Shown here: one piece after another, positions 1-25,107 of the stretch | Layout of the letters: every line of letters begins with the position of its first letter | How positions within the stretch are numbered: the first letter of the stretch is position 1 | Source: a virus | Direction: 5' to 3' (one strand) | Length of the DNA stretch: 30,321 nt | IMG/VR virus record: IMGVR_UViG_3300021559_000076 | Span: 1-30,321 of that record | Translations under genes and position numbers: made by a program | The notes under the pieces: model-generated | The model's database searches: none | Told to the model about the DNA's origin: nothing | What the model saw: only the letters and a program-made list of their open reading frames with translations

Positions 1-305
1 CTCCCCTGCGAGCTATCGCAGGCCGTCACCTGCGAGCTACCGTAGGCCCTCACCTGCGAGCTATCGTAGGCCCTCACCTGCGAGCTATCGTAGGCCCTCA
101 CCTGCGAGCTATCGCAGGCCGTCACCTGCGAGCTACCGTAGGCCCTCACCTGCGAGCTATCGTAGGCCCTCACCTGCGAGCTATCGCAGGCCGTCACCTG
201 CGAGCTACCGTAGGCATAAAACACGCCCGCCCGAACAACGGCAATATCGCCGTCTTTACAAACCTTCTCAAGTTCTGCTTGTGTTTTTACTTCAACTTCC
301 TTCAT
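1..305 (-). CDS. Octapeptide-repeat protein (3' end cut by window edge)
   Basis: The start is the ATG at 305, preceded by a strong GGGGG ribosome site and a minus-strand promoter at 331-359. The first 30 or so residues (MKEVEVKTQAELEKVCKDGD...) form an ordinary globular start. From about residue 33 the protein is a run of 8-residue units of the type AYGSSQVT, ACDSSQVR, AYDSSQVR, continuing past the window edge. Alternating small, polar and valine residues at this spacing are typical of short parallel beta-helix repeats seen in some phage and bacterial proteins. The function is unknown; a surface or virion-attached solenoid is an inference. The gene is incomplete here, so its length is not known. 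Confidence 0.8.
   Translation of the reverse strand, partial: MKEVEVKTQAELEKVCKDGDIAVVRAGVFYAYGSSQVTACDSSQVRAYDSSQVRAYGSSQVTACDSSQVRAYDSSQVRAYDSSQVRAYGSSQVTACDSSQG
5..213. repeat. 24-bp tandem repeat, nine units
   Basis: The word GCGAGCTA starts at 8 and recurs exactly every 24 bases up to 200, giving nine units. They encode the octapeptide repeats of the minus-strand gene. Units differ at a few positions and fall into three types ordered A-B-C-C-A-B-C-A-B, so a 72-bp higher-order unit has been copied as well. The array continues to the left edge. Confidence 0.95.
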
Positions 306-1133: not shown

Positions 1134-1604
1134 CTAGACGGTTTTTGCTTTTGCAACCTGAAACTGGTTTTCTACCATCGCCACAACGTCAGCGGGCAAT
1201 TCCTCCTTGAGCCAAGCGAACCCGTATTTGTAGCCACCATCGGGATTCAAGCCCGCGTCTGTGAGTACCTTGCTTGCCTTCTTATAGTGCGATTCGGGAT
1301 ATACCGCGTTTACAGGATGCTCACGAAGGTAAGCCATCTGTGCGGGCGTTCCCGCTCGCAAATCGTTCAAATGCCAACGTTCCCAAACTGCTTTGATGCG
1401 CTGAATACGGGCGTTCCCGCGCAATAGCTTCGCTATCTCATCAATGTTTTGCCCGCCTGAATAGATATCAGTTTCGCGGGGATTCCAGATGCTACCGCAA
1501 ATACTCAGACGCCCGTCTTCCAAACTAACTTCAACGGTTACGCGGCAGTTCTTTCGCCCGCTATTGTTGTAGTCTACCTTGCCGAAGTCTATCGTGTATT
1601 TCAT
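1134..1604 (-). CDS. Conserved phage protein of unknown function, 156 aa
   Basis: The start at 1604 has a GGAGAG ribosome site. The N-terminal half is predicted to be beta-rich (YTIDFGKVDY ... CRVTVEVSLEDGRLSICGSIWN). The middle carries the stretch VWERWHLNDLRAGTPAQ, and the C-terminus ends in YGFAWLKEELPADVV. I recall this combination, WHLND-x-x-AG plus G-x-AWL-x-x-x-LP, from uncharacterised proteins of several phages and plasmids. No catalytic motif is evident and the role is not known. Confidence 0.75.
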   Translation of the reverse strand: MKYTIDFGKVDYNNSGRKNCRVTVEVSLEDGRLSICGSIWNPRETDIYSGGQNIDEIAKLLRGNARIQRIKAVWERWHLNDLRAGTPAQMAYLREHPVNAVYPESHYKKASKVLTDAGLNPDGGYKYGFAWLKEELPADVVAMVENQFQVAKAKTV

Positions 1605-1657
1605 ATTCTCTCCTCTCGGGCTTCGCCCGTAATCTCTTGTCCGTTTCCCGTACCTAG

Positions 1658-1957
1658 TTACTCGCCCGCGTCCGAGTCGTTCTTACGGGCAAGCTTGATT
1701 ACAGGTTCGATTCTCGCCCGAATCCATTTGTATTGCCTGCCTTCAAGCCCGTTTAGTTGCGCGAAAATATCCTCTAGCGCGTCTAGCATCTCGGGCGATG
1801 CAGCACACAAGTAAGCATTGCAGTCCCGTTCTACTGGCATTGTCCCGTTGCTAGGTTCCCTGTCCATACGGGCAATAGGGACGCCCGAAACCGTTTCGAC
1901 CGCGCCAGAGCTAACTACCCAAGGTCCGGGCGTGTGTGTTGTCTTTGTCATTGTCAT
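1658..1957 (-). CDS. HTPGPW-type phage protein, 99 aa
   Basis: The protein opens with MTMTKTTHTPGPW and ends its core with NAYLCAASPEMLDALEDI. The HTPGPW start followed by an ANA-x-L-x-AAP-x-LL motif defines a very common small phage protein family of unknown function. The ATG at 1957 overlaps the upstream TGA (ATGA), so it is chosen over an in-frame ATG at 1993. The C-terminal third is charged and helical. Confidence 0.75.
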   Translation of the reverse strand: MTMTKTTHTPGPWVVSSGAVETVSGVPIARMDREPSNGTMPVERDCNAYLCAASPEMLDALEDIFAQLNGLEGRQYKWIRARIEPVIKLARKNDSDAGE

Positions 1958-2289
1958 TGCATTTCCTCCTGCTCGGATTCTGCTTTCTGGCAATCTTCTA
2001 GCGCCATGTCATACTTTTCTTTGGTTTCGAGGATCGTAGCAGATACAAAGCCCGTATCTGATTCGGACAATGCAAGCCCATAAGCTTCCCCTAATTCCGG
2101 AAACCGTACACGGTCCTCCGCGTCAATCTGGAAGAAGTAAACATTGTCAACGTCTTCGGACCATGCACCATCTAAACCCGATTCCCAAAAATCGGGAGTG
2201 TAAAGCATTTCTCCCTCGAATTTTCCGGGCGTCCGGATGATACCGTTTGTATCTACGTTGTACATTCGGAGAATTTCTTCGCGTGTCAT
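1954..2289 (-). CDS. Conserved phage protein, 111 aa
   Basis: It starts MTREEILRMYNVDTNGIIRTPGKFEGEMLYTPDFW. The pattern Y-N-x-D-x-x-G-x-I-x-x-PGKFEGE occurs in uncharacterised phage proteins. The protein is acidic (many D/E) and ends in a charged helix. It lies three bases downstream of the previous gene's stop. A copy of the 14-base word TCCGGAAACCGTAC lies inside it at 2096-2109, on the plus strand. The function is unknown. Confidence 0.7.
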   Translation of the reverse strand: MTREEILRMYNVDTNGIIRTPGKFEGEMLYTPDFWESGLDGAWSEDVDNVYFFQIDAEDRVRFPELGEAYGLALSESDTGFVSATILETKEKYDMALEDCQKAESEQEEMQ

Positions 2290-2292
2290 GGT

Positions 2293-2781
2293 CTATAACT
2301 CCTCTCGTTCGGAATCGTTCATATGCTGGACACTCGCCCGTAATGCCTCACGTTCTTGCTTGCGGGCTTCCAAAGCTTCAGAGGCTAATTCTGCCTCTAC
2401 CACTCTGCGATAGTCGTTAGTCGCACCACAGATTCCCCACAGCGAAAACGGCATATGTTTCCCATGTTCATCTAGCAGGATACAGCCTAGGGTTTCGTGC
2501 TCCTCGCCCGTGCTGCATTTGCATTCGGGCGATTTGCAATCACAGCCCGAGCATCCCGAATCATCCCACTCCCAAGCATAGGACCATTGTTTGCGGGCTG
2601 CTATGGATTCGGCCTCTGACAATTCCTTAGCGCAACGGATGCGCCCGTCTTCGGGCTTCTCATTAGGCCCGTAGGAATAGCCCGCGTGATCGTAGAAAAA
2701 CAGTTCTGTGGGCGTCAATTCCTTTACTGCCTTCGCCCGTTTGCTCCTGCCTGCCTTTACTGCCTTCGTTTTGAGTGTCAT
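2293..2781 (-). CDS. Conserved phage protein with Cys cluster, 162 aa
   Basis: A basic N-terminal tail of about 20 residues precedes ELTPTELFFYDHAGYSYGP, then a charged helix. A cysteine cluster (GCSGCDCKSPECKC) follows and probably binds metal, and the protein ends in a long charged helix. FFYD-x-AG-x-SY with GRIRCA is a feature I associate with uncharacterised phage proteins. The ribosome site GGAGGAA lies about seven bases before the ATG at 2781. The role is unknown. Confidence 0.7.
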   Translation of the reverse strand: MTLKTKAVKAGRSKRAKAVKELTPTELFFYDHAGYSYGPNEKPEDGRIRCAKELSEAESIAARKQWSYAWEWDDSGCSGCDCKSPECKCSTGEEHETLGCILLDEHGKHMPFSLWGICGATNDYRRVVEAELASEALEARKQEREALRASVQHMNDSEREEL

Positions 2782-2802
2782 TAGCGTTTCCTCCGTTGAA
2801 TT

Positions 2803-2955
2803 TTACTGCAATTCTAATACCTTTGCCGCATTCTCAAACCGGACGCCCGCATACTTCGCTACGAGCTTTACCGTACCGTATGCCAGCATCAAAAGTACAG
2901 CAAGCATAACGGCGTATTCGGTCAATCCTTGTCCGGTTTGTTTGCGGGCGTCCAT
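2803..2955 (-). CDS. Flp/Tad-prepilin-like peptide, 50 aa
   Basis: After a short basic leader (MDARKQTG) comes QGLTEYAVMLAVLLMLAYG, a hydrophobic helix of about 20 residues, and then a basic and polar tail. Flp-type prepilins of Tad systems are cut after a glycine and have Glu and Tyr at mature positions 5 and 6; here G8 is followed by Q-G-L-T-E-Y, an exact match. The spacing to the previous gene is seven bases, and the ribosome site is weak (GGAAAG). What a phage would do with a pilin-like peptide is unknown. It could also be just a small membrane anchor. Confidence 0.65.
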   Translation of the reverse strand: MDARKQTGQGLTEYAVMLAVLLMLAYGTVKLVAKYAGVRFENAAKVLELQ

Positions 2956-2959
2956 TTGT

Positions 2960-3145
2960 TTACTTTCCGCAAGAGATTACCAACACGTCGCCCGTCTTAA
3001 TTCCGGTCGCATCCCCACCGTTAAGGCAGGTAATGGCTACCTCATTCTCCGTCAAATGGGAAACGTGAATGTTAGACTTCGGACGCTCGCCCGCTATCAA
3101 ACTTGCGGACGCCATGAGCACGAAAACTGCAATTGCTTTTGTCAT
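2960..3145 (-). CDS. Small secreted protein with two cysteines, 61 aa
   Basis: A basic start and hydrophobic run (MTKAIAVFVLMASASLIAG) form a typical signal peptide, probably cut near AGE. The mature part is about 40 residues and carries two cysteines (ITCLNGGDATG and VISCGK) that could form a disulphide in the periplasm. The ribosome site GGAGGG is strong. It lies next to the pilin-like gene, so both products are likely exported. The function is unknown. Confidence 0.65.
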   Translation of the reverse strand: MTKAIAVFVLMASASLIAGERPKSNIHVSHLTENEVAITCLNGGDATGIKTGDVLVISCGK

Positions 3146-3160
3146 ATTCCCTCCGATTAG

Positions 3161-3334
3161 TTATCTTGCACGATACTCGCCAAACTGAGCGAGCACAAAA
3201 CAATAGGCTTTTACCAGATTGACAACTAGCCCGACAATCAAGACTTGCCAAGTTGACAAACTTTGCTCACGGGCTTGACACTTACGGGCAATGCTCGCCC
3301 GGAATACCGAATTGTCACGCCTGTAACGGGTCAT
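3161..3334 (-). CDS. Small membrane protein, 57 aa
   Basis: The ATG at 3334 shares bases with the upstream stop (TAATG). A basic N-terminal half (MTRYRRDNSVFRASIARKCQ) precedes one transmembrane helix (WQVLIVGLVVNLVKAYCFVL) and a short basic tail. The helix region resembles the peptide encoded at 4191-4397 (both LS-x-WQ followed by valine-rich residues). In both, the codons overlap a TTGCCA-N3-TGACAA dyad. No function is known. Confidence 0.55.
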   Translation of the reverse strand: MTRYRRDNSVFRASIARKCQAREQSLSTWQVLIVGLVVNLVKAYCFVLAQFGEYRAR

Positions 3335-3525
3335 TAGCGGGCTTCCTCTGTATAGCTTCCGCACCATTCGCAGCAACGGAGTGATTGATTCGGAACGTGC
3401 TCGCCCGGTACAGTCAAAACGTTCTGCTCGCATGACGGGCAGTATTGGACGCGCCTATCATCGCCCGCAGGAGCGGAATACGCGGGCAGTTCGTAAGGAG
3501 TCTTACCGAAACGTTTGATCGTCAT
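3334..3525 (-). CDS. Zinc-finger-like protein, 63 aa
   Basis: Four cysteines sit in two knuckles, CPSC and, about 20 residues later, CCEWCG, a layout typical of small zinc ribbons. The ribosome site GGAGG lies just upstream of the ATG at 3525. The stop overlaps the start of the downstream membrane-peptide gene. Zinc binding is inferred and the target is unknown. Confidence 0.7.
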   Translation of the reverse strand: MTIKRFGKTPYELPAYSAPAGDDRRVQYCPSCEQNVLTVPGEHVPNQSLRCCEWCGSYTEEAR

Positions 3526-3581
3526 ACTTCCTCCGTTTTTCGTACTCTAAGCCCGTGACCTAGAGTAGTCAAGAAAATAAT

Positions 3582-3611
3582 TTGTCGTTTGTCACACTAT
3601 CGTGCTATGCT
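3582..3611 (+). promoter_or_regulatory. Plus-strand promoter for the 32-aa membrane peptide
   Basis: TTGTCG (3582-3587) is separated by 18 bases from TATGCT (3606-3611), with a TGC extension before the -10 box. The ATG follows at 3631. This matches the TTGTCA-18-TATAAT layout before the homing endonuclease gene. A short hairpin (CGTGC/GCACG) overlaps the -10 region. Confidence 0.5.
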
Positions 3612-3630
3612 TCGCACGTTAGGGGGACAT

Positions 3631-3729
3631 ATGCTAATCCTGAAAATCATCGGGCTTGTGTATCTAGTTTCCATTGTGTTCTGCCTGTTATTCGGGCAAA
3701 TCTGCGCAGTCGGGGAAAATGCCCGATAG
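3631..3729 (+). CDS. Membrane micropeptide, 32 aa, antisense to its neighbours
   Basis: The peptide MLILKIIGLVYLVSIVFCLL, followed by a short polar tail, is almost entirely one transmembrane helix. It has a clear AGGGGG ribosome site seven bases before the ATG and its own promoter. It is the only plus-strand gene I see inside the minus-strand cluster. The inverted pair GCCCG/CGGGC flanks its stop. A toxin, holin-like or host-takeover peptide would be possible, but nothing in the sequence decides. Confidence 0.5.
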   Translation: MLILKIIGLVYLVSIVFCLLFGQICAVGENAR

Positions 3730-3759
3730 CTCACTAGACTACCGGGCTTCGAGTGCGGA

Positions 3760-4020
3760 CTAAACTCTGGTAAAGCTCGCCCAGTCCTCTTGATCCTGTA
3801 GGCGGGCTTCGCTCGCTATCTCCTCATGCGATGCGAAGCAGTTCTCACAGCCATATGACGCTAGCTGGAAATGCGGGCAATCCATATTCCGTACAGGTTC
3901 GGGCGTCTGTTCAGTGATTGGCAGGTAGCCCGTAAACGGGTCAAGGGCTGTGAGCAATTCCTGATAAATCGCCCGTGATACCCAAATTTGCTCTGGCGTG
4001 TTTTGCTTGTAGGTAGTCAT
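3760..4020 (-). CDS. Cys-containing phage protein, 86 aa
   Basis: The N-terminal half is helical (EQIWVSRAIYQELLTALDPFTGY). A metal-binding pattern follows: CPHFQLASYGCENC, i.e. C, H, then C-x-x-C. The C-terminal part is acidic. The ribosome site GGAGGAG precedes the ATG at 4020, and the ATG overlaps the stop of the gene upstream (ATGA). The function is unknown. Confidence 0.7.
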   Translation of the reverse strand: MTTYKQNTPEQIWVSRAIYQELLTALDPFTGYLPITEQTPEPVRNMDCPHFQLASYGCENCFASHEEIASEARLQDQEDWASFTRV

Positions 4021-4190: not shown

Positions 4191-4397
4191 TCAGCGGGCG
4201 ATTATACGGAATATTGACAAAGTGACAATGATTGTCAGAAATACTAGCACAATTTGCCAATCTGACAAGCTGTACGCTTTCCGGACGCCCGTAAGCTCTT
4301 TAGAATTGCCCGTAATTTGTCTATTGACTTTGGTATCAGGAGTGCTGCGGGATAGATGCCAATGATTCGAGCGTTGGCTTCCTAGGATGCTGCCCAA
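4191..4397 (-). CDS. Possible small membrane protein, 68 aa, weak start
   Basis: The C-terminal 25 residues form a clear transmembrane helix (LSDWQIVLVFLTIIVTLSIF) related to the membrane peptide at 3161-3334. The only start for the full length is TTG at 4397, without a good ribosome site. Two minus-strand promoters and several TTGTCA/TGACAA sites overlap the codons. It may therefore be a real paralogue, a decayed copy or chance. Confidence 0.3.
   Translation of the reverse strand: MGSILGSQRSNHWHLSRSTPDTKVNRQITGNSKELTGVRKAYSLSDWQIVLVFLTIIVTLSIFRIIAR
4201..4228 (-). promoter_or_regulatory. Minus-strand promoter of the left gene cluster
   Basis: On the minus strand TTGTCA (4228-4223) is separated by 16 bases from a perfect TATAAT (4206-4201). 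The -35 box is half of an inverted dyad TGACAA-TGA-TTGTCA at 4223-4237. It would drive the genes from 4184 leftwards. Confidence 0.6.
4241..4268 (-). promoter_or_regulatory. Second minus-strand promoter overlapping a dyad operator
   Basis: On the minus strand TTGTCA (4268-4263) is separated by 16 bases from TAGTAT (4246-4241), which has a TGC extension. The -35 is one arm of the dyad TTGCCA-N3-TGACAA (4254-4268 on the plus strand). The same degenerate dyad lies at 3245-3259. Confidence 0.45.
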
Positions 4398-8996: not shown

Positions 8997-9133
8997 TGTT
9001 GCTCTATAACCGTTTACGGATGCTTCAAGAGAAGCTCCAATCGGGTAAAGTTAGGGATGTAGACGGGCTTCTGAAGGTTCTTAATACCCTAATCGAGTTC
9101 CTGATGGAACAGGAATTGTACGGCAAACGATAA
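8996..9133 (+). CDS. Small helical protein, 45 aa
   Basis: MLLYNRLRMLQEKLQSGKVR, followed by DVDGLLKVLNTLIEFLMEQE, is probably a two-helix hairpin. It is coupled by TGATG upstream and TAATG downstream, directly before the fucosyltransferase-like gene. No family was recognised. Confidence 0.6.
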   Translation: MLLYNRLRMLQEKLQSGKVRDVDGLLKVLNTLIEFLMEQELYGKR

Positions 9134-9972
9134 TGGTAGTTCTCAAGCCAGTTGGTGGTATCGGGAATCAGCTTCACATCCGCGCAATGGGCTACGCGCT
9201 CGAAGCCCTAGGAAATGAAGTAGGTTTCGACCTTTCGTATTTTAAGACTGATGATACACGGGCATACGCGCTAGACCGATTCAATACTGAAGTAAATCAG
9301 GTCTATATCGGCGGACAAGAGATAAGCGAGCCGGACCTGACGTACCATCCGGAACTGCTGAAGAAGTACGAGAACGACGTTAGGCTTTCGGGCTATTTCC
9401 AATGTCCTCGATACTTCGAGGGTGTCGAAGATACGATCCGAAAGGCTTTCACTCTCAGGAACAAGCCAAGCGACCAGACACTAACGATCGCCCGAGAGAT
9501 AGAAGCCTGCAACTCCGTGTTCTTGCATGTCCGGAGAACGGACAGCTTAGCAGCAAGAGGGCTGGCGTTTCACGGTGTTTGTTCGGGCGAGTATTACGGA
9601 CGAGCAGTATATTACATCTTAAAAAACGTCTCTAGACTGAAATTTTTCATTTTCTCAGACGATATCGGGTGGTGCAAGAAGAACGTTGTGGAGTTCGGGT
9701 ATCCGCTGACGTACGTGGATCACAATAGTACGGGCGTTACAGTATTGCCTGACAACGAAGTCCGGAAGACGGATACGGGCACGGAGCACGAAGACCTATG
9801 GCTGATGTCCCGATGTAAGCACGGCATCTGCGCGAACAGTAGCTTTTCGTGGTGGGCCAATTGGCTTATCCAGAATCTGCAAAAAAATTGCATAGCGCCC
9901 CGAGATTGGTTTACTCCTACTTTCAACCACCTGAGCGCAGACATGATTCCTGACGGTTGGGCGCGACTATGA
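9133..9972 (+). CDS. Alpha-1,2-fucosyltransferase-like GT11 glycosyltransferase
   Basis: GT11 enzymes transfer fucose from GDP-fucose to a sugar acceptor. The family signatures are present in order: VGGIGNQL (residues 7-14), HVRRTD (132-137, usually HVRRGD), IFSDDIGWCK (173-182) and DLWLMSRCKHGICANSSFSW with WANWL (221-245). At 279 residues it has normal bacterial length. The Gly-to-Thr change in HVRR-x-D and the partial replacement of GNQL-F-Q-Y-A by GNQLHIRAMG could affect donor or acceptor choice. It opens the glycan cassette, and with the epimerase at 14597 it could use GDP-L-galactose, which is inference. Confidence 0.85.
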   Translation: MVVLKPVGGIGNQLHIRAMGYALEALGNEVGFDLSYFKTDDTRAYALDRFNTEVNQVYIGGQEISEPDLTYHPELLKKYENDVRLSGYFQCPRYFEGVEDTIRKAFTLRNKPSDQTLTIAREIEACNSVFLHVRRTDSLAARGLAFHGVCSGEYYGRAVYYILKNVSRLKFFIFSDDIGWCKKNVVEFGYPLTYVDHNSTGVTVLPDNEVRKTDTGTEHEDLWLMSRCKHGICANSSFSWWANWLIQNLQKNCIAPRDWFTPTFNHLSADMIPDGWARL

Positions 9973-10223
9973 CCGAACGAGAAGCATACGCAGCGTTGGG
10001 CTGGCCCGAAGATGGCGTGGTGAATAAATTCATCCTGCCTATTTCTGGTTCAGAGGCGAACGACTGGCACGCCTATCGTTGCCTTAATGAAAACTGTCCC
10101 GCACCGTTTTCGGGCGTCGGTGTTGGGTATTATTTAGAGCGCGAGCCTAACTGCCCGAATTGCGATACGCCGTATACGGAAATTGTACAGACGAGCAAAG
10201 CAACTTACGAATATAAGAAATGA
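9969..10223 (+). CDS. Small zinc-ribbon protein, 84 aa
   Basis: The ATG at 9969 overlaps the upstream stop (ATGA), so an in-frame ATG at 9957 is disfavoured. Two cysteine pairs, CLNENC and CPNC, about 25 residues apart, form a probable zinc ribbon (YRCLNENCPAPFSG ... PNCPNCDTPYTE). It lies inside the glycan cassette between two transferases. Its role there is not clear. Confidence 0.6.
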   Translation: MTEREAYAALGWPEDGVVNKFILPISGSEANDWHAYRCLNENCPAPFSGVGVGYYLEREPNCPNCDTPYTEIVQTSKATYEYKK

Positions 10224-11032
10224 GCTATCTTTCGTTCGTCTTTACGGGCAGCAATGCATGTTACGGCGGTGACTTTATCCAGCGAATGCAAAACTGCTTG
10301 GATAATCTTTACGGGCTTCTTGAGCAGCATGGTTTTGACGCCGATGTAACGGTAGTTGAGTGGAACCCCCCGAAAGATCGCCCGCGAATTGCGGATGCGC
10401 TCGACTGGAACTCCAAGTGGATTCAGACCAAGATTATCACTGTACCGGGCGAGGTCCATAACAGTCTTCCCAATCCACACGGCGAGAAGTTCTTTGAGTA
10501 CGTTGCCAAGAACGTAGGAATCAGACGGGCTTCGGGTGAGTTCATCCTTAGCACGAATCCGGACAACATCTATAGCCCGGAATTGATTCAAAGACTTTCG
10601 AAGCTCGACAAGGATTGTTTCTATCGGGTAAACCGATACGACGTTCGAGACGGAAAAGTAACAGCGGCGAACTTCAATACAGGCACCCGCTATCCAGACG
10701 GTTCGAGTACGGAAAGCGAACTTACAAACCCCGACCCGGACGGACTGCACTTCAACGCTTCGGGCGATTTCATTCTGATGCACCGAGACGCGTGGGCGGC
10801 GATCAAGGGTCACCCGGAAGTGCCGTACAGTCTCACAGTAGATGGGCAGACGGTTTACCTCGCGGCTCAAGAAGGCTTGAAGCAAGTCATCCTTCCGGAG
10901 CCAATGTTTCACCAAGACCACAGCCGGACCGACAAGTGGTGCCCGCCGTGGGATGATAATTCTCCTTGGGGAGAAAAGAACGCAATAGATTGGGGCCTGT
11001 CGGAACTCTCGTTTGAAACAAGATACTTATAA
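10220..11032 (+). CDS. GT-A fold glycosyltransferase-like protein, 270 aa
   Basis: The pattern fits a nucleotide-sugar glycosyltransferase of the GT-A type. It has an N-terminal beta strand and helix with VVEWNPPKDRPRI, then NVGIRRASGEFILSTNPDNI (the place where GT2 enzymes have ASG-x-(Y/F)-I-x-x-x-D), and a later FNASGDFILMHRDAW. Instead of a clear DXD there is N-P-D-N. Acceptor and donor are unknown. It is coupled by ATGA to the previous gene, and the next start overlaps it by 20 bases. Confidence 0.65.
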   Translation: MSYLSFVFTGSNACYGGDFIQRMQNCLDNLYGLLEQHGFDADVTVVEWNPPKDRPRIADALDWNSKWIQTKIITVPGEVHNSLPNPHGEKFFEYVAKNVGIRRASGEFILSTNPDNIYSPELIQRLSKLDKDCFYRVNRYDVRDGKVTAANFNTGTRYPDGSSTESELTNPDPDGLHFNASGDFILMHRDAWAAIKGHPEVPYSLTVDGQTVYLAAQEGLKQVILPEPMFHQDHSRTDKWCPPWDDNSPWGEKNAIDWGLSELSFETRYL

Positions 11033-11687
11033 CCAGCAGTTAGCTCAGTTCTCCGCTAAGCACGACGGGCGTTTTCCTGTTATTCAGCAGTTGCCGTGCT
11101 TGACGGATGATGATTCCGGGCACGACCACTGCCCGATCTATTTGCATTTTCTGGGGTGGGCTTCCCGGATTCTGGCAAAGACGCGCCCCGCGAGTCACGC
11201 CGATTTTGGCGGACTGACCTATTTCTCTGCCATCGCTTCCGCAATCTGCCCGATCACGTTCTACGACATCCGGGAAGTACGAATATCATTGCCTGACGTT
11301 AAAGTCGAACAAGCGGACCTGACGCGTCTTCCGCTATCGGATGGTTCTCTGAAATCTCTGTCTTGTATGCACGTTCTTGAGCACGTTGGCCTCGGGCGAT
11401 ACGGCGATACTTTGGATGTGCAAGGCGACCTGAAAGCTGCGGGCGAGTTGAAAAGAGTTCTGGCTCCGGGCGGGCAAGCACTCATCGTGTTGCCCGTAGG
11501 ACAGCCCAAAGTAATGTTCAATGCCCATCGAATCTATTCGTACCAGCAAGTTCTGGAAATGTTCAAGGGTCTTGAATTAAAAGAGTTCACGCTGTTTGAT
11601 CCTCCGCAGTACATCGTCAACGCGAATCCTGAGCGGGTAAAAGGAATCTCTGAGGGCGCGGGTTGTTTCTGGTTCAAGAATGCCTGA
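11013..11687 (+). CDS. DUF268-type SAM-dependent methyltransferase, 224 aa
   Basis: The sequence has DFGGLTYFSA, TFYDIREV, QADLTRLPLSDGSLKSLSC, then MHVLEHVGLGRYGD and LKRVLAPGGQALIVLPVG and FNAHRIY. This series is characteristic of DUF268, a methyltransferase-like family often found in polysaccharide loci. The best start is TTG at 11013, inside the end of the previous gene. It probably methylates a sugar or glycan; the substrate is not known. Confidence 0.75.
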   Translation: MKQDTYNQQLAQFSAKHDGRFPVIQQLPCLTDDDSGHDHCPIYLHFLGWASRILAKTRPASHADFGGLTYFSAIASAICPITFYDIREVRISLPDVKVEQADLTRLPLSDGSLKSLSCMHVLEHVGLGRYGDTLDVQGDLKAAGELKRVLAPGGQALIVLPVGQPKVMFNAHRIYSYQQVLEMFKGLELKEFTLFDPPQYIVNANPERVKGISEGAGCFWFKNA

Positions 11688-12483
11688 TACGCTTAGCGAA
11701 GCATTGCTTCAAGAACTCCCGGATATGCCGGAGGAGTTCAAGACGAGACTCCTCAAAGTTGTCCGGGAATGGGATAACGGGGAATATTGGCGAAAGTTAA
11801 AAAGAGATCAGGACGCTCGTACTCAACGTTTCTACGAAAGATTCATAAAGAATGGCGATCTGGTTTTTGATATCGGCGCGAACATCGGGGAACGTACTGA
11901 GATATTCCGGGCGCTCGGAGCCAAAGTAGTCGCGGTCGAACCCCATCCGGATTGCGTACGAGTTCTGAACAAGAAGTTCAGCGACGATCCGAACGTTACC
12001 GTTGTCCCCCGCGCCCTAGGAAACCACGTTGGAATAGGAACGCTTATCACAGGAGAACGTAGCGGAATTTCATCCCTATCGTCCCCGTGGATCGAAGCGG
12101 TTCGAGAATCTAATAGATTCGGCGAATACCAATGGGATCGTAAGTGTGAAGTAGAACTCGATACCTTGGATTTTCTAGTATCGCAGTACGGCATCCCGTC
12201 GTTCATCAAGATTGATGTTGAAGGGTTTGAAGATCAGGTTTTGAGCGGGCTATCGACTCCGGTACATTCTCTGTCTTTTGAATTCAACACCGAGTTTCTG
12301 ATTTCGACTGAAGCCTGTGTTCGTAAACTGGAAAAACTTGGCCCGGTAAAGTTTAGTTACTCCACGAAAGAAACAATGGAACTTCATCCCGAGTGGCTAA
12401 CGGGCGATGAAGTTCTTGGGTATTTGGACCGATACAAGCACGACAATAAAATGTACGGCGATGTCTATGCCCGGTTTGCATGA
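11680..12483 (+). CDS. FkbM-family methyltransferase, 267 aa
   Basis: A Rossmann SAM-binding motif, LVFDIGANIGERTEIF, is followed by AKVVAVEPHPDCVRVL and VELDTLDFLV. The FkbM signature FIKIDVEGFEDQVLSG comes next. FkbM enzymes O-methylate sugars and other hydroxyl groups. The N-terminal 60 residues form a helical extension (EFKTRLLKVVREWDNGEYW). Its start overlaps the DUF268 gene by eight bases. Together they make sugar O-methylation likely. Confidence 0.8.
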   Translation: MPDTLSEALLQELPDMPEEFKTRLLKVVREWDNGEYWRKLKRDQDARTQRFYERFIKNGDLVFDIGANIGERTEIFRALGAKVVAVEPHPDCVRVLNKKFSDDPNVTVVPRALGNHVGIGTLITGERSGISSLSSPWIEAVRESNRFGEYQWDRKCEVELDTLDFLVSQYGIPSFIKIDVEGFEDQVLSGLSTPVHSLSFEFNTEFLISTEACVRKLEKLGPVKFSYSTKETMELHPEWLTGDEVLGYLDRYKHDNKMYGDVYARFA

Positions 12484-13154
12484 ACACGGCTTTGGTTTTA
12501 GTAGCTACGGGCAAGATGTATCACGAGTACGCCCGTCAACTGATTGCATCAGCGAAGCAATATTTTGTCCCCCACGAAGTCTGCTTGTTCACGGATAGCG
12601 ACGAGGACTTCGAAGTTTACAAAGTCAAGTGTCCTACGCTCGGGTATCCGGAAGCAACACTCAAAAGATATCACCTGTTTCTGACGCAAGAACGGGCGCT
12701 CGCTAAGTTTGATTACGTATTTTACGTAGATGTTGACGCAAAGTTCGTAAGTTCGGTTGGGCAAGAGATTTTCGGGCCGGACATTACAGTCGTTATACAC
12801 AAAGGTTATAACGAACACACTTGGGATTGGTTCGCGGAACACCGACCTGAAAGCTCCGCCCACACAGGATATATCGGGCGGTATTATGTTGGTGGTTTTA
12901 ACGGCGGCACGAGCAAGGCGTTCTTGGGTATGTCTCGGGCGATTCGAGACGCGGTGGACAGAGACGATAGCAAAGGATTGGTAGCCCGCTGGCACGACGA
13001 GTCGCACATGAACCGATACTTGTCCGAGCATAAACCTTCTACTGTTCTTTCGATTGACTACGGGTATCCCGAAACGGATTTAGAAGGCTACAAGGGTTCT
13101 CCAAAGATTCTGTTTTTAGAAAAGGGTTTAGGTGATCGTACGGTTTGCGGATAG
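12480..13154 (+). CDS. GT6 (ABO/alpha-1,3-galactosyltransferase family) glycosyltransferase
   Basis: GT6 enzymes add galactose or GalNAc in alpha-1,3 linkage. Visible hallmarks are YPEATLKRYHLFL (residues 56-68), FYVDVDAKFV with a DVD metal site (84-86), RYYVGGFNGGTSKAF (134-148) and WHDESHMNRYL (171-181), the counterpart of the WHDESHLN-x-Y of the blood-group enzymes. The length of 224 is that of the short, stem-less bacterial form. As I recall, most bacterial members have NXN in place of DXD, so this phage copy keeps the metal site. It overlaps the next gene by 23 bases. Confidence 0.85.
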   Translation: MNTALVLVATGKMYHEYARQLIASAKQYFVPHEVCLFTDSDEDFEVYKVKCPTLGYPEATLKRYHLFLTQERALAKFDYVFYVDVDAKFVSSVGQEIFGPDITVVIHKGYNEHTWDWFAEHRPESSAHTGYIGRYYVGGFNGGTSKAFLGMSRAIRDAVDRDDSKGLVARWHDESHMNRYLSEHKPSTVLSIDYGYPETDLEGYKGSPKILFLEKGLGDRTVCG

Positions 13155-13806
13155 GCCGCCTTTGGCCAGCATAGTCATCGCGCTCTACAACAAAGGCGCA
13201 TACGTTCAAGAGACTCTAGAATCTTGCTTCGCACAGACGTACAAAGGGTTCGAAGTAATTGTTGTTGATGACGGCAGTACGGATAGCGGACCTCAGATCG
13301 CCCGTCAGTTTCCTGTCAAGATTGCCACAGTGACAAACCGGGGGATTGCCGGGGCCCGGAATGCGGGCGTGATGGCTTCAACGGGCGACTTCATTCTCCC
13401 GCTCGACGCCGATGACATTATTCACCCGTGGTATCTGGAAAAGACCGTTCCGTTGATGACTGAAGACGTGGGCATTGTTTCAACGGATATGCAGCGGTTC
13501 GGAGCACAGACCGAACGACTGCCCGCTAAGGTTCTGACGTACGAGCAAGAGCGCCAGTACAACGAGATTCCAGTTTGCTCGCTGATTAATAGGCAAGCGT
13601 TTATCTGGTGCGGCGGATACACTCCGCGAGTTCCGGGCTACGAAGACTGGGCGCTCTGGACAGACATTCTTAGACGCGGCTGGAAGATGGCCGTAGTTAA
13701 TGAGCCTCTGTTCTTTTACCGGACGGGCTGCAACACCGCCAACAACGAAGCAGACAAACACAGGGAAGAATTCACGAGACTGGTTCACGAATGGAACCCA
13801 CTTTAA
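13132..13806 (+). CDS. GT2-family glycosyltransferase, 224 aa
   Basis: It is a classical GT2 domain: SIVIALYNKGAYVQETLESC, FEVIVVDDGSTDSG, TNRGIAGARNAGVMASTGDF and ILPLDADDI, where DADD is the metal-binding motif. GYEDWALWTDILRRG near the end matches the ED acceptor-site motif. The start is GTG at 13132 inside the preceding gene. It transfers a sugar from a nucleotide donor to an unknown acceptor. Confidence 0.85.
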   Translation: MIVRFADRPPLASIVIALYNKGAYVQETLESCFAQTYKGFEVIVVDDGSTDSGPQIARQFPVKIATVTNRGIAGARNAGVMASTGDFILPLDADDIIHPWYLEKTVPLMTEDVGIVSTDMQRFGAQTERLPAKVLTYEQERQYNEIPVCSLINRQAFIWCGGYTPRVPGYEDWALWTDILRRGWKMAVVNEPLFFYRTGCNTANNEADKHREEFTRLVHEWNPL

Positions 13807-14600
13807 CGGACGTAGCGGCGTATTGGAATTCCCGCCCGTGCAATATACGGCGGAGCGCGGCCCCAACAGACTCCAAGCAGTTCATGGACGAGACTGAGGC
13901 CCGTAAGTACACATCGGAGCCGCATATTCCGGGTTTTGCTGAGTTTGACAAGTGGGCCGGAAAGTACGTTCTAGAAATCGGCTGTGGCATCGGGATTGAT
14001 ACAGTCAATTTTGCCCGAGCAGGCGCTAATGTAACAGCGGTTGATTTATCAGAAGAGTCTCTTCGAATTGCAAAACGGCGGGCCGATCTAGCCAACGTTC
14101 CTTTGCGGTTCATCCAGTCGAACGCTGAAGAACTTAGCCTTTGTGATCCGGCCTATCACTTGATTTACGCTTTCGGTTCTATCCACCACAGCCCGCGCCC
14201 GGTTTCGATTCTGCGCGAGATGCGAAAGTATAGCGGCAAAGTCACGACTCTCAAGATCATGGTTTATAACAAGTGGTCTTGGAAAGCGTTGTGGATTCTG
14301 TTGAAGTACGGCAAAGGACAGTTCTGGAAGTTCAGCGAATTGATCGCCCGCTATTCGGAAGCGCAGACCGGATGCCCCGTGACTCATGTGTACTCGCGAC
14401 GGTCAATCAAGAAACTAGTCGAGTCTGCGGGTTTCCGAGTCAAGAAGATTTCAGTAGATCACGTTTTTAAGTTCGACATTCCATCCTACATAAAGCATGA
14501 ATACAAAGTGGACTGGAAGTTTCGTTGGATGCCTTCGTGGTTGTTTCGGGCGTTCGAACGTGTGGCGGGATGGCATCTTCTGGTTGAGGCGACTGCTTGA
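13791..14600 (+). CDS. Class I SAM-dependent methyltransferase, 269 aa
   Basis: The SAM-binding site is VLEIGCGIGIDTVNFARAGA with AVDLSEESL after it, as in the UbiE/Methyltransf_11 group. IYAFGSIHHSPRPVSILREM marks motif IV and the following helix. The extra C-terminal 90 residues carry several aromatic patches (VDWKFRWMPSWLFRAFERVA) and might bind a lipid-linked or membrane-near acceptor. The start overlaps the GT2 gene end. The substrate is unknown. Confidence 0.75.
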   Translation: MEPTLTDVAAYWNSRPCNIRRSAAPTDSKQFMDETEARKYTSEPHIPGFAEFDKWAGKYVLEIGCGIGIDTVNFARAGANVTAVDLSEESLRIAKRRADLANVPLRFIQSNAEELSLCDPAYHLIYAFGSIHHSPRPVSILREMRKYSGKVTTLKIMVYNKWSWKALWILLKYGKGQFWKFSELIARYSEAQTGCPVTHVYSRRSIKKLVESAGFRVKKISVDHVFKFDIPSYIKHEYKVDWKFRWMPSWLFRAFERVAGWHLLVEATA

Positions 14601-15553
14601 GGATACTAGTTACAGGCGCGGGCGGCTTTATCGGGCACCATCTCGTTAAGAGATTGAAAGCCGAGGGACACTTTGTTCGGGGTGTAGACATCAAGTTTCC
14701 CGAGTACGAGGAAACAGCCGCCGACGAATTTTGGCCTTTGGACTTGCGAGAGTACGGAAACTGTTTGCTGGCTACGGGCGACGGGATCAACGCTTGCTAT
14801 TCTCTTGCGGCGACGATGGGCGGGATCGGATTTATAGAGACCCATCTCTCCGAATGTGCCCGCGACAATGTGTTGATAAACGCAAACATGTTAGAAGCCG
14901 CCCGAAAAAACGGCGTCAAGAAGTATCTTTATACTTCCAGTGCGTGCGTTTACAACCAAGATAAACAGCGGGACGAAGATGTCACTCCTCTAAAAGAGGA
15001 GGACGCTTATCCAGCGATGCCCGAGCCCGGATACGGGTGGGAGAAGTTGTTCAGCGAGCATCTAGCGGAATGCTACCAGCACGACTTTCCGGAGATGGAC
15101 ATCAAGATTGTCCGGTTCCATAACGTCTACGGGCCTCTTGGAACATACGATGGCGGGAAAGAAAAATCTCCCGCAGCATTGTGCCGGAAGATTGCGAAAG
15201 CTAATTCGGGCGACGAGATAGAAATTTGGGGCGACGGTTCCCAAACTCGCACATACATGGCCGTGGACGATTGCGTAGAAGGCCTTATCCGTCTGATGAA
15301 CTCAGACTACAACAAGCCTCTGAATCTCGGGACAGACGAACTAATCAGTATCAACGGGCTAGCCGACAAGATCGCAGGAATCGCGGGCAAGGAAATACGG
15401 AAAGCGCACAATCTTTCCGCCCCGCAGGGTGTTCGCGGTCGTTCTTCTGACAACACTCGGCTGCTAGAAGTCCTCGGTTGGGAGCCCAGAATAACGTTAG
15501 ATCAAGGGTTGCCCGAAACATACGCTTGGATCAACGAGCGGGTCAATGGATAG
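14597..15553 (+). CDS. GDP-mannose 3,5-epimerase-like NAD-dependent epimerase
   Basis: It belongs to the extended SDR family: GAGGFIGHHL (residues 7-16) binds NAD, and Y146-x3-K150 (YGWEK) is catalytic. Features shared with GDP-mannose 3,5-epimerase are MGGIGFIETH (74-83), SSACVYNQDKQ (114-124), PLKEEDAYPAMPEPGYG and HNVYGP-x-GTYDGGKEKSPAA. That enzyme turns GDP-mannose into GDP-L-galactose or GDP-L-gulose. The TTG start overlaps the upstream stop (TTGA). The product fits use by the GT11 enzyme, which prefers GDP-6-deoxy-L-galactose. Confidence 0.8.
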   Translation: MRILVTGAGGFIGHHLVKRLKAEGHFVRGVDIKFPEYEETAADEFWPLDLREYGNCLLATGDGINACYSLAATMGGIGFIETHLSECARDNVLINANMLEAARKNGVKKYLYTSSACVYNQDKQRDEDVTPLKEEDAYPAMPEPGYGWEKLFSEHLAECYQHDFPEMDIKIVRFHNVYGPLGTYDGGKEKSPAALCRKIAKANSGDEIEIWGDGSQTRTYMAVDDCVEGLIRLMNSDYNKPLNLGTDELISINGLADKIAGIAGKEIRKAHNLSAPQGVRGRSSDNTRLLEVLGWEPRITLDQGLPETYAWINERVNG

Positions 15554-21181: not shown

Positions 21182-22990
21182 GTGGAGAAACTGACCGAAG
21201 CCCGTAAAGATGATCTAGCTGCTCTCTGGACAAAATACCGACAGGTAGTTCTAGACCAGTACGGATACGATCTCATTAAGGATGGGCTCACCCTTCGGTA
21301 CAGATGTCAGACGGACGGCTTCTGGTTTGCTCGCGAGGTTCTCGGGTATCGGTATTTTGCTGACTGCCACAAGGAACTCTTCTCGTCGCCCGATCAGCCA
21401 AATAACTTTTTTGTCCTCAAAGACCCTTCGGCCAAGAGCTTCAAAGACTTCGCTGAAGCAGATAAAGAGTTGCATGATCGCCTCTTGTTTCTTTCCCGAG
21501 GCGGATTCAAATCGACTGCCGATATAGTCGATACGATCCAATATGTAATTTGCTGGCCCTCGATCCGCGTGAATATTATGACGGGCACCGTTGACCTCGC
21601 CGCCGAGTTCACAGGTATCATCAAAGGGCACTTCAAGCTGAACGAAGAAGGAAGCCCGAGATATTTTGACGAGGGCGATCTAACGGGCAAGGTTCGTCTG
21701 CTGCAAATCCTTTTCCCCGAGCATTGCGAGACCAAACCGGGTGAAAAGCCAATGTGGGTCACGCCCGCCCGCACCACGGACGTTGCAGGCCCGACAATTC
21801 GTGCCACGTCACTCGGAAAGAACACGACTGGTACGCACTGCGACGTTCTCAAGATTGACGACGGAACAACCGCAGACAATACTCAGAACATCGAGCGCAT
21901 AGCGGGCGTCAACCGTGAAATCAGCATGGCCCGTAAGCTGGTCGAGCCGTACGGCTACAAGGATCGAATCGGCACTCCATACCACCTGAACGACAACTTG
22001 ACTGCAACAGTCAAGGATGAGGAACTTAGATTCAGGAACGGGAAGCCGCCGCTGGTCAAGGTGCTCGCGCACCCGGTCGGCGTAGTTAAGCCGGGTTTCG
22101 AAGACCTGACTCCCGACTTGCTCGAAAACCACATGATCGACCTGTGGTTCCCCGAGCGACTGACTTTAGAGGTCATCAAGCGGGAATACGCGGAAGCGCA
22201 GAAGACCAACGACACTGCGACCTTCTACAGCCAATACTTCCTAGACCTGAACAAGTCTTTCGAAACGAAGTTCAGGCGCGAGCTAATGGTTGCCCGCACA
22301 GTTGATACTCTGCCTCAACAGGGAATCACTTTCGAGGCTTGGGATTTAGCGTACTCCGAGAAGTCAAATGCGAAGTATACCGTAGGCATGGCGGGCTTGT
22401 TTACCATGCAGGGTATCTACATCATTGACATGGTTCGCGGGCGATTCAGCGAGTACGAACTTCCCGGAGTCATGGCTAGTTTCGCGCATAAGTGGAAACC
22501 CCGAAGAGTAGCGGTTGAAGACTCGATGGGTGCCCGCTGGCTGAACGCCGAGATTCGACGCGAGCAAGAGAAACTCCGGATTCACGTACCGTTCGAGTTC
22601 GTTTCAATCGGAAAAGGTTCGAAGCAGAACTCCAAGGAAGTCCGGGCGAAGCCCGCAGCAAGATTGCTCGGAGACGGGCGACTATACTTCTGGAAAGCAA
22701 TGTCCGGCCTCGAAGAACTCTACAACGAGTTAGAGGCGTTTCCGAAGGGTGTGTATACGGATATCGTATGTAGCCTGTCGTTGCTAGTCAACCACTTCTC
22801 TGCTTTTGCGGATACGTCGCCCGTGGCTCCTCCGAGCGTAACCGACAGTATGGAGCGGACTCGCTTAAATCAAATATACGGGCTTGGGAAATTCGCCCCG
22901 CAAGTTCAGGATTCCACAATAATTTCCAATTCAGGCGGGGTTCAGGAATTCGACCGAGACCCGCTGGCCGAATCCGGCCTCTTCTCGTAG
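21182..22990 (+). CDS. terL: Terminase large subunit, 602 aa
   Basis: The terminase motor drives DNA into the procapsid and cuts it. The ATPase domain has a Walker A-like SRGGFKST (residues 105-112) and a Walker B DVLKIDD (221-227). The nuclease domain, an RNase H-like fold, has AWDLAYS with D388, VAVEDS with D447 and the late D in YTDIVCSLS. The start is GTG at 21182, four bases after the previous stop. The length fits large podovirus-type terminases. The following dyad operator begins right after the TAG stop. Confidence 0.95.
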   Translation: MEKLTEARKDDLAALWTKYRQVVLDQYGYDLIKDGLTLRYRCQTDGFWFAREVLGYRYFADCHKELFSSPDQPNNFFVLKDPSAKSFKDFAEADKELHDRLLFLSRGGFKSTADIVDTIQYVICWPSIRVNIMTGTVDLAAEFTGIIKGHFKLNEEGSPRYFDEGDLTGKVRLLQILFPEHCETKPGEKPMWVTPARTTDVAGPTIRATSLGKNTTGTHCDVLKIDDGTTADNTQNIERIAGVNREISMARKLVEPYGYKDRIGTPYHLNDNLTATVKDEELRFRNGKPPLVKVLAHPVGVVKPGFEDLTPDLLENHMIDLWFPERLTLEVIKREYAEAQKTNDTATFYSQYFLDLNKSFETKFRRELMVARTVDTLPQQGITFEAWDLAYSEKSNAKYTVGMAGLFTMQGIYIIDMVRGRFSEYELPGVMASFAHKWKPRRVAVEDSMGARWLNAEIRREQEKLRIHVPFEFVSIGKGSKQNSKEVRAKPAARLLGDGRLYFWKAMSGLEELYNELEAFPKGVYTDIVCSLSLLVNHFSAFADTSPVAPPSVTDSMERTRLNQIYGLGKFAPQVQDSTIISNSGGVQEFDRDPLAESGLFS

Positions 22991-23005
22991 TTGTCAAACT
23001 GACAA
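22991..23005. promoter_or_regulatory. Dyad operator between terminase and portal genes
   Basis: TTGTCA-AAC-TGACAA is a perfect copy of the dyad found at the promoters of 4953, 5376, 6612 and 29331. No good -10 box follows at the right distance. It may therefore act on transcription passing through or on the portal leader, whose ATG lies at 23014. Confidence 0.55.
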
Positions 23006-23013
23006 GGATATAG

Positions 23014-25107
23014 ATGGCGCTTCTAGAAAAAGACGGTAACCCGAACGCAGTTCTCCACGCTTCTGATTTTACAAGCGCGGGAGAAACTAAATCGCTTGCT
23101 ACGGATTTAGCCCTTGTTGTCGGGTGCGCTACCACTGATGAGGCGTGGGTTTCGAGTAAGCGATGGAATTTGTTATGGTCTGAGGCGGATTTGCTTTTTC
23201 AAGCGCCCCGCCCGGTGACTACGTTCGAGGGGTCGTACATACTCGAACCAAACGTCCAGCGGTTCACTATCGCGAAAGTTGTTAATTCGGTTGTGCCTCA
23301 GCTTGTAAAAGGTCTTTTCTATCAAGACCCGCCGATGGTTCTTCGCCCGCGCAAAGGAACTTCTGAGAAGACGGTTGAAGAGAAAACCACAGTCATGTCT
23401 GTCATGCTTGATGCCTGCGACTTCAAAAGCGAAGTCAAGTGGGGCATGGAGCAGCTAGCCCATTTAGGAACGGGTATCTGGAAATGGGGCGTTCATCGAG
23501 TAGAGAAGCAAGTTCCGAGGAGAATTGTAGACAAGGTTAAGACTGTTGATTCGGCAGGTGGTTCGGAAACCGTACACTCGGATGCACCCCCAAAGATCGA
23601 ATACACCAAGAAGGTTCATTACTATCCTTTCTTCGAATCTCGGCCTATTGGCAATGTTCTTATTGACGCATCGACACCCGTAGGCGATATCCGTCGTTCC
23701 GGGCACGCGATTGATGTCTATTATGCCGATTTCTACGCTCTCCGCGATTTGAAGAATGCAAACGTCGGTCAGGACGGCAAACCGTTGCCCGGATGGACGT
23801 GGGACGAGTATTGGTCTGACGAGAAATTAAAGGAATTGTGGGCCCCGCCTGTTGAGGCTTTTGAAACTCCAGCGTTGTTAAGAAGCGACCAGACTAACAC
23901 CACCGTTGGAGTTGTTCATCACGCGGAGCAACCGACTGCTGTCACGAGCGCCGATCCTCTGGCAAAGAAGATGGAAGTCCTAGAGTATTGGGATAAGAAG
24001 CGTAAGATCATCGTCATCAATCGCCGGAAAGTCATCTTCTCGGGACCAAACGAATTCGAAAGACTCCCATTCTTGTCGGCCAATTGGTGGAATCGCCCGA
24101 AGGCTTTATACGGAATGGGCATTGGTCTCACAGTTGGGCAGAACCAGCGCGTTGACCAAGGTGCAATTAACTCGATCCTGAAGATTCTTAGCTTCGGCGT
24201 AAATCCGGTTTACCTCCGGGCAAGAGATTCTAACTCCCCGACGCAGATGATCCGCACGAGCATCGGAAAGATTATTTCAGTCGATGGCGAGCCAGAGAAG
24301 GCTTATAAATTGCTCGAACAGCCCCGCGTTCCTGCGGACGTTTGGGCGGCGTTGGAGAATTCTGAAGCTAACACTGAATCCACGACGGGTGCAGACCAGA
24401 CTCTTGTTCAGGGTTCTTCTGCTGGCCCGAGGGCGGGCATCGGTAGAAGTGCTACTGGCGCGGGTGCAATGGCTCAAGCGTCGGCTACGAGGCTCGACGG
24501 GCCCCTAGACAATTTTCTCAATCAAGTTTTCGTCCCGTTCCTATATATCCTCGATGAGTTGATTTTCAAGTATGTCTCTGATGCACAAATATCCGACATT
24601 TTGGGAGAAGAGTTAGGTAAAGATTATCTCCAAGAAATTGACATGCAGGAGTACCACGACGGCAAGGTAACCTTCGAGGTTCTTGCCGGGTCCGCGATGT
24701 CCGCTCGCCGGACAATGACTCAGGCACTCACTTTGCTCACGCAGTTCATGCAGAACCCCGAGTTCAACGAATACTTGGCTGACATGGGTAAGTACATAGA
24801 TTGGGAAGTTATCTTCCAAATGTATTTCGAGGCTAGTGAGTGGAAGAACTCGCAAGACGTGATTAAACCTCTGACACCCGAAATGGAAAAGAGACGGGCC
24901 GCTAAACTGCAACAGCAGCAACAGGGTCCGATGCAGACGCAAATGGCTTTGAATAACCAAAAGGCGGATGCCAAGTCCAAATTGGAAGAACAGCGTTCGG
25001 CGGATCGTATCAAGAACGATGTTGTGCGGTTCGCTGTTGAACACTCTGTCCGTGACGAAGCAACTGAGGGGCTAGCAGGAAACGCGGGCTTCGGAGACGT
25101 TGAATAA
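23014..25107 (+). CDS. Portal protein, 697 aa
   Basis: It follows the terminase directly, as portal genes do. The length and composition match the large podovirus (P22-like) portal group: a long alpha/beta body (YILEPNVQRFTIAKVVNSVV, WNRPKALYGMGIGLTVGQNQ), a central DQ-type segment (RVDQGAINSILKIL) and a C-terminal helical barrel with a Gln run (LQQQQQGPMQTQ). The portal ring is the entry gate for DNA and docks the terminase and tail. It contains the boundary-like word TTCGGAAACCGTAC at 23572-23585. The stop overlaps the next ATG. Confidence 0.85.
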   Translation: MALLEKDGNPNAVLHASDFTSAGETKSLATDLALVVGCATTDEAWVSSKRWNLLWSEADLLFQAPRPVTTFEGSYILEPNVQRFTIAKVVNSVVPQLVKGLFYQDPPMVLRPRKGTSEKTVEEKTTVMSVMLDACDFKSEVKWGMEQLAHLGTGIWKWGVHRVEKQVPRRIVDKVKTVDSAGGSETVHSDAPPKIEYTKKVHYYPFFESRPIGNVLIDASTPVGDIRRSGHAIDVYYADFYALRDLKNANVGQDGKPLPGWTWDEYWSDEKLKELWAPPVEAFETPALLRSDQTNTTVGVVHHAEQPTAVTSADPLAKKMEVLEYWDKKRKIIVINRRKVIFSGPNEFERLPFLSANWWNRPKALYGMGIGLTVGQNQRVDQGAINSILKILSFGVNPVYLRARDSNSPTQMIRTSIGKIISVDGEPEKAYKLLEQPRVPADVWAALENSEANTESTTGADQTLVQGSSAGPRAGIGRSATGAGAMAQASATRLDGPLDNFLNQVFVPFLYILDELIFKYVSDAQISDILGEELGKDYLQEIDMQEYHDGKVTFEVLAGSAMSARRTMTQALTLLTQFMQNPEFNEYLADMGKYIDWEVIFQMYFEASEWKNSQDVIKPLTPEMEKRRAAKLQQQQQGPMQTQMALNNQKADAKSKLEEQRSADRIKNDVVRFAVEHSVRDEATEGLAGNAGFGDVE

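Follow-up and report, generated by a model that had tools for sequence, protein, structure and literature searches.

Why would a tailed phage from soil encode a 50-residue peptide that begins like an Flp prepilin? The peptide is encoded in the 30,321-base IMG/VR record IMGVR_UViG_3300021559_000076, the whole of which was analysed and is called the window below. An earlier note had proposed that it might poison or mask host Tad pili, alter the receptor or block superinfection. The reading we favour, at roughly even odds (about 0.5), is that the gene is a moron whose product is a prepilin-like peptide of the Flp type (type IVb/IVc, Tad), which stands alone in the phage, would use the host's peptidase and assembly platform and would act as a decoy at host Tad pili. 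Coordinates are collected in Table 1.

Table 1. Positions of the main features in the window, with the contigs that carry comparable pilins
Feature	Position	Strand	Remarks
Small leftward genes	1134..4020	-	good Shine-Dalgarno sites in most; read from the listed ORFs and the bases ahead of them
Downstream gene, 162 aa, FFYDHAGYSY family	2293..2781	-	relatives in three other IMG/VR contigs
Flp-prepilin-like ORF, 50 aa	2803..2955	-	coordinates include the stop; translation MDARKQTGQGLTEYAVMLAVLLMLAYGTVKLVAKYAGVRFENAAKVLELQ
Shine-Dalgarno-like site GGAAAG (TGCGGAAAGTAAACA-ATG)	2956..2970	-	about 6-8 nt ahead of the ATG
Upstream gene, 61 aa, signal-like N-terminus, TCLNGGDA...SCGK (two Cys)	2960..3145	-	homologues in G003 and G002
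Terminase large subunit	21182-22990	+	36% identity with Tunturiibacter phage Tunturi_3, covering 95% of the query
Portal-type protein	23014-25107	+	52% identical to Tunturi_3
Stand-alone-pilin contigs (14)	L083-L091, L095, L096, L098, L099, L102		from the GQGL[VA]EYA scan

Prepilin motif and coding potential

Translation of the minus strand confirmed the residues on which the earlier note had relied, namely G8, then Q-G-L-T-E-Y, then about 20 hydrophobic residues. G8 is followed by QGLT, E13 and Y14, placing Glu and Tyr at +5 and +6 after the G|Q junction, and the Flp prepilin motif GXXXXEY is thus present in full. This is the published Flp motif and the processing site of TadV/CpaA peptidases (PMC10934763). 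The predicted cleavage at G8|Q9 would remove the leader MDARKQTG and leave a mature peptide of 42 residues (QGLTEYAVMLAVLLMLAYGTVKLVAKYAGVRFENAAKVLELQ). The roughly 20 mostly hydrophobic residues behind the motif have a mean Kyte-Doolittle value of 1.96 (Y14-A33), and AlphaFold, run on the single sequence, predicted one continuous helix over residues 3-49 (mean pLDDT 79.9). The single predicted hydrophobic helix after the motif is as in Flp pilins, and the size of about 50 residues falls within the Flp-pilin range (about 50-80 residues).

Several counts give the chance level of this arrangement. Across some 590 kb (the window plus its relatives), a comparable hydrophobic stretch comes after about 1% of the E-[YFL] dipeptides found in open frames; the combination of G....EY with a hydrophobic stretch occurs once, at the pilin ORF itself. 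A DNA pattern for GQGLTEYA, searched in all of IMG/VR, was found in three other contigs, none of which continues into a hydrophobic segment. Among 84,980 prokaryote genomes, GQGLTEYAV was present six times: in five Flp-like pilins and one CTP synthase.

The 50-residue ORF is probably a real gene, judging from its Shine-Dalgarno-like site, the 4-nt gap that separates it from the stop of the upstream gene, and its phage-like codon usage (+0.24 bits per codon, compared with a mean of 0.18 for the known coding windows of this phage). Antisense ORFs have a mean codon score of -0.17, and 92 of the 93 score below the pilin ORF. The downstream gene follows 21 bases further and, being encoded on the minus strand, confirms that this is the coding strand here. 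Overlapping plus-strand ORFs were ruled out as genes by codon scores of -0.15 and -0.27.

Relation to Flp and TadE proteins

The peptide alone was used in a six-frame search of 121 Gemmatimonadota genomes and of 58 from the phylum to which a Silvanigrellales MAG belongs. The best Gemmatimonadota match (E 0.007, residues 6-48, 37% identity) lies in a gene that itself matches Pfam Flp_Fap. Among 20 further matches fetched from the two phyla, 18 have a hydrophobic segment preceded by G....EY, as in Flp, or by G....EF, as in TadE; E-values of the six-frame matches were modest (0.005-0.1 per genome). Nearly all cellular relatives examined retain G....E[YF].

Scored with a profile of 25 Flp-type sequences, the peptide reached 21.5 bits, a value attained by none of 3000 full shuffles. 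Most of this score comes from the first 14 mature residues, and the second half of the helix does not stand out from shuffled sequence (p 0.36). For the tail, where Flp pilins show I...F..a...L, an ungapped match to the Flp profile had p of about 0.035 (24-42), or 0.005 for the last 13 columns (30-42), a range chosen afterwards. By our own reading the tail is also more basic than that of most Flp pilins.

Pfam Flp_Fap did not match the peptide; this model is insensitive here, as cellular Flp-like proteins with a GQGLTEYAV core likewise fall below its cut-off. Pfam TadE gave a sub-threshold 13.6 bits over residues 8-31 (cut-off 22.9), and PHROGs and NCBIfam returned nothing useful for the peptide. 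The only matches in a PDB sequence search, to MATE transporters, were dismissed as chance.

The peptide thus resembles Flp major pilins (PF04964/PF16982) in its GXXXXEY motif, the hydrophobic helix directly behind it, its length of about 50 residues, its single-helix fold and its best whole-genome match, which is an Flp gene. It differs from them in being phage-encoded, in having no adjacent tad/cpa genes, in scoring below the Pfam cut-off and in the divergent second half of its helix. TadE/TadF pseudopilins (PF07811) follow the same prepilin logic and account for the sub-threshold match, but TadE has EF and a long periplasmic domain, whereas the window peptide has EY and ends after 50 residues. 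The Flp-prepilin-like identity put forward in the earlier note is therefore well supported, by the motif, the hydrophobic helix, the unbiased retrieval of Flp and TadE genes from genomes and the weak tail match. The peptide would be either Flp-derived or strongly Flp-mimicking, with divergence after the processing site. Formal membership in the Flp family is not reached at the Pfam cut-off or by gene context, and we do not file the peptide as a proven member.

The phage and its leftward gene cluster

The terminase and portal genes (21182..25107, plus strand) mark the contig as a tailed phage and make the phage location of the peptide, also claimed earlier, certain. Among cultured phages, Tunturi_3 of Tunturiibacter comes closest; it is a podovirus with a length of 97.6 kb and an Acidobacteriota host. 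G002 and G003, two relatives known from uncultured phages and each near 92 kb long, share 74-75% identity in the terminase and the entire rightward gene order with the window, and a further contig (G006), 100% identical to the last 10,002 bases of the window, extends the same phage. Together, Tunturi_3 and these relatives make Acidobacteriota the likely, though not proven, host. The phage is probably lytic, and no integrase was found within the window.

The pilin ORF belongs to a cluster of small leftward genes that adjoins a divergent boundary, the first rightward gene starting at about 5486; Tunturi_3 has the same leftward/rightward layout. Upstream of the cluster, four overlapping promoter-like matches occur at 4201-4268 on the minus strand, and the best such site for the cluster (4228-4201, minus strand, TTGTCA-16-TATAAT) scores 11/12. 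Between positions 1000 and 6000 there are 11 promoter-like sites, compared with 4.1 expected. The leftward cluster is a probable early operon.

The peptide itself has no homologue in the related phages. A tblastn search against cultured phages and plasmids gave no match, and scans of IMG/VR and of the genomes for the peptide alone, with exact 8-mer patterns, gave no confirmed relative. The function of the peptide can consequently draw on no argument from conservation. Both neighbours have viral relatives. The downstream gene product belongs to a family found in three otherwise dissimilar viral contigs (L008, L009 and L010; 35-43% identity) and has no Pfam family. The upstream gene matches the description of a secreted Cys-containing protein beside the peptide: a 61-residue product read from 3145 to 2960 on the minus strand, predicted to be secreted or membrane-anchored and to carry two Cys. 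Its homologues in G003 (L015:6853-7122) and G002 (L011:1347-1757) keep both Cys and have no pilin ORF alongside; the spacer between the anchor and the TCLNGGDA...SCGK motif varies.

In G002 and G003 the Cys protein is instead followed by other genes, including one for a one-helix peptide of 39-40 residues without a prepilin motif. The early regions of these two relatives hold several unrelated one-helix peptides close to the Cys protein (for example MTEKILSFWYWLEQWSLICFAGWALLAGLDWLFGKNRYNR), which suggests that the early region swaps small membrane genes. The pilin gene accordingly has the look of a recently acquired moron and not of a companion to the Cys protein.

Orphan Flp-type pilins in other viral contigs

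A scan of IMG/VR for GQGL[VA]EYA returned 21 contigs, 14 of which encode Flp-type pilins, mostly of about 50 residues. PHROG matches place three of them in a phage context: L091 has a tape measure gene (4e-37), L088 a virion protein gene (7e-67) and L098 terminase and portal genes. For L084, L086 and L102 the phage context comes from our own reading of the neighbouring genes. No prepilin peptidase matched in the 14 contigs, several of which are fragments in which absence carries little weight; no T2SSE match exceeded the cut-off, and there was one weak 11-bit match (G084). Some of the contigs may include host DNA, among them L089, which has a TadE-like GQAIVEF ORF beside its pilin.

These orphan pilins (L084, L086, L088, L091, L098, L102 and others) share with the window peptide their length of about 50 residues, a comparable core (GQGL[VA]EYA in their case) and their stand-alone position in phage contigs. 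They are nearer to the canonical Flp consensus, and the first of them has only 24% overall identity with the window peptide. Where phage neighbours are clear, these pilins are found close to tail, terminase or portal genes, in contrast to the window pilin with its place in a probable early leftward cluster.

The only open-access report of phage-encoded Flp pilins that we found describes such genes in the Vibrio harveyi prophages phi345 and phiGANI1709, where they were interpreted as possible adhesion factors (PMC12482185). Compared by description only, these are phage-borne and Flp-type like that of the window, but they are prophage genes from another phage group and host. The 14 IMG/VR contigs and the V. 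harveyi prophages together indicate that orphan Flp pilins are recurrent in phages.

Possible function and alternatives

If the resemblance to Flp pilins extends to processing, a host TadV/CpaA-type peptidase would cleave at G8|Q9, and the 42-residue mature helix would then join the host Flp pilins awaiting assembly in the inner membrane. In the third and least certain step, this divergent subunit, made early, may enter or clog the host Tad platform. Pili could become fewer or altered, with less adsorption of further phages, or the cell surface could be changed in some other way. Neither Peptidase_A24 (PF01478) nor T2SSE (PF00437) was matched in the window, its relatives or the continuation contig, these being partial records; with neither enzyme found in the phage, the motif, if used, needs a host enzyme. 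The early-operon position of the ORF leads us to favour interference with host Tad pili over a role in lysis or structure. The poisoning or masking of Tad pili, the receptor change and the superinfection block suggested in the earlier note are all compatible with that position and with precedents of the PfsE type.

Four other explanations were weighed. That the ORF is a chance frame that is never expressed seems scarcely credible: it is short, has no phage homologue and its expression is predicted from sequence, but a coding score typical of real genes where the opposite strand is negative, a ribosome site, a tight operon and a protein-level relation to Flp all speak for a gene. The 4-bp spacing within one operon could also mean that the peptide works together with the Cys protein, for instance as a pilin with its periplasmic cap or chaperone. 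We consider this very unlikely, as relatives have the Cys protein and no pilin, and scans of IMG/VR for the Cys protein gave no second pair; a conserved unit of the two was ruled out on these grounds, and the link implied by the earlier note is weakened.

A small membrane peptide with some other task, for example superinfection exclusion at DNA entry, membrane-acting host takeover or an antiholin, would have an Flp-like or Flp-derived N-terminus and no use as a pilin. The turnover of one-helix peptides near the Cys protein in the early regions of G002 and G003 fits this; none of those has the motif. Against it, chance would very seldom produce eight residues that match the Flp core with a helix behind them. 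Divergence has, moreover, spared exactly the residues needed for peptidase recognition and assembly, and we give this explanation a minority share of some weight. Alternatively, the product could be a working extra pilin, built into host Tad pili, that alters adhesion or aggregation of infected cells in a way that profits both host and phage and inhibits nothing. The adhesion-factor reading of the V. harveyi pilins (PMC12482185) points this way, as do those orphan phage-contig pilins that resemble regular Flp pilins with a ...LG..I...F tail. The window peptide, however, departs from the Flp consensus past position 14, and an adhesion benefit would be brief when delivered from the early operon of a probably lytic phage; an extra pilin thus appears unlikely here.

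The decoy reading has functional precedents in phage products that shut off other pili. PfsE (PA0721, Pf4) is a very small phage protein of the inner membrane that attaches to PilC and halts T4P extension, while the phage proteins Tip (D3112) and Aqs1 (DMS3) bind PilB (PMC8764522). PfsE also shares with the window peptide its tiny size and the inner-membrane location predicted here. These proteins differ in having PilC or PilB of T4aP as their targets and, as described in the same source, are not pilin mimics. Known phage inhibitors of pili hit the ATPase or the platform, and a pilin look-alike, if real, would mean another strategy, one relying on a processing enzyme of the host; Tad pili would then be a phage battleground in soil bacteria. 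Weighing against the decoy reading are the missing phage homologues, the sub-threshold Pfam scores, the divergent helix with its basic tail, the different gene setting of the other phage pilins and the presumed, host-dependent presence of Tad pili. On the last point, an acidobacterial comparison lists four each of the Flp assembly ATPases CpaE/CpaF in Solibacter, versus 0 in its comparison column (PMC3174227).

More tentatively, phages may have picked up orphan Flp pilins again and again for use as dominant-negative or masking subunits. Such mimicry of the pilus subunit, processed by the host peptidase, would serve to exclude superinfecting phages or to change the receptor at Tad pili. We hold this wider proposal to be somewhat doubtful. 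Stand-alone Flp pilins that occur in unrelated viral contigs without detectable Tad machinery make the question testable through some 15 short genes.

Other genes of the phage

Tandem short-repeat proteins are encoded in comparable parts of the early regions, at 3-305 (minus strand) in the window and at L015:8499-9146 and L011:1-367 in the relatives; the repeat units are YGSSQVTACDSSQVRAYD... in the window and pentapeptide-like ADLRSANLRS in the relatives. A phage-borne sugar pathway block on the plus strand (9133-16781), just ahead of the packaging genes, comprises a glycosyltransferase, a methyltransferase, an NAD-dependent epimerase and a UDP-glucose dehydrogenase, with 47-70% identity in G002, G003 and G005. 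Right behind the portal gene, at 25107-25943 on the plus strand, lies a member of the histidine phosphatase superfamily (Pfam E 1.5e-32) that is about 72% identical in relatives.
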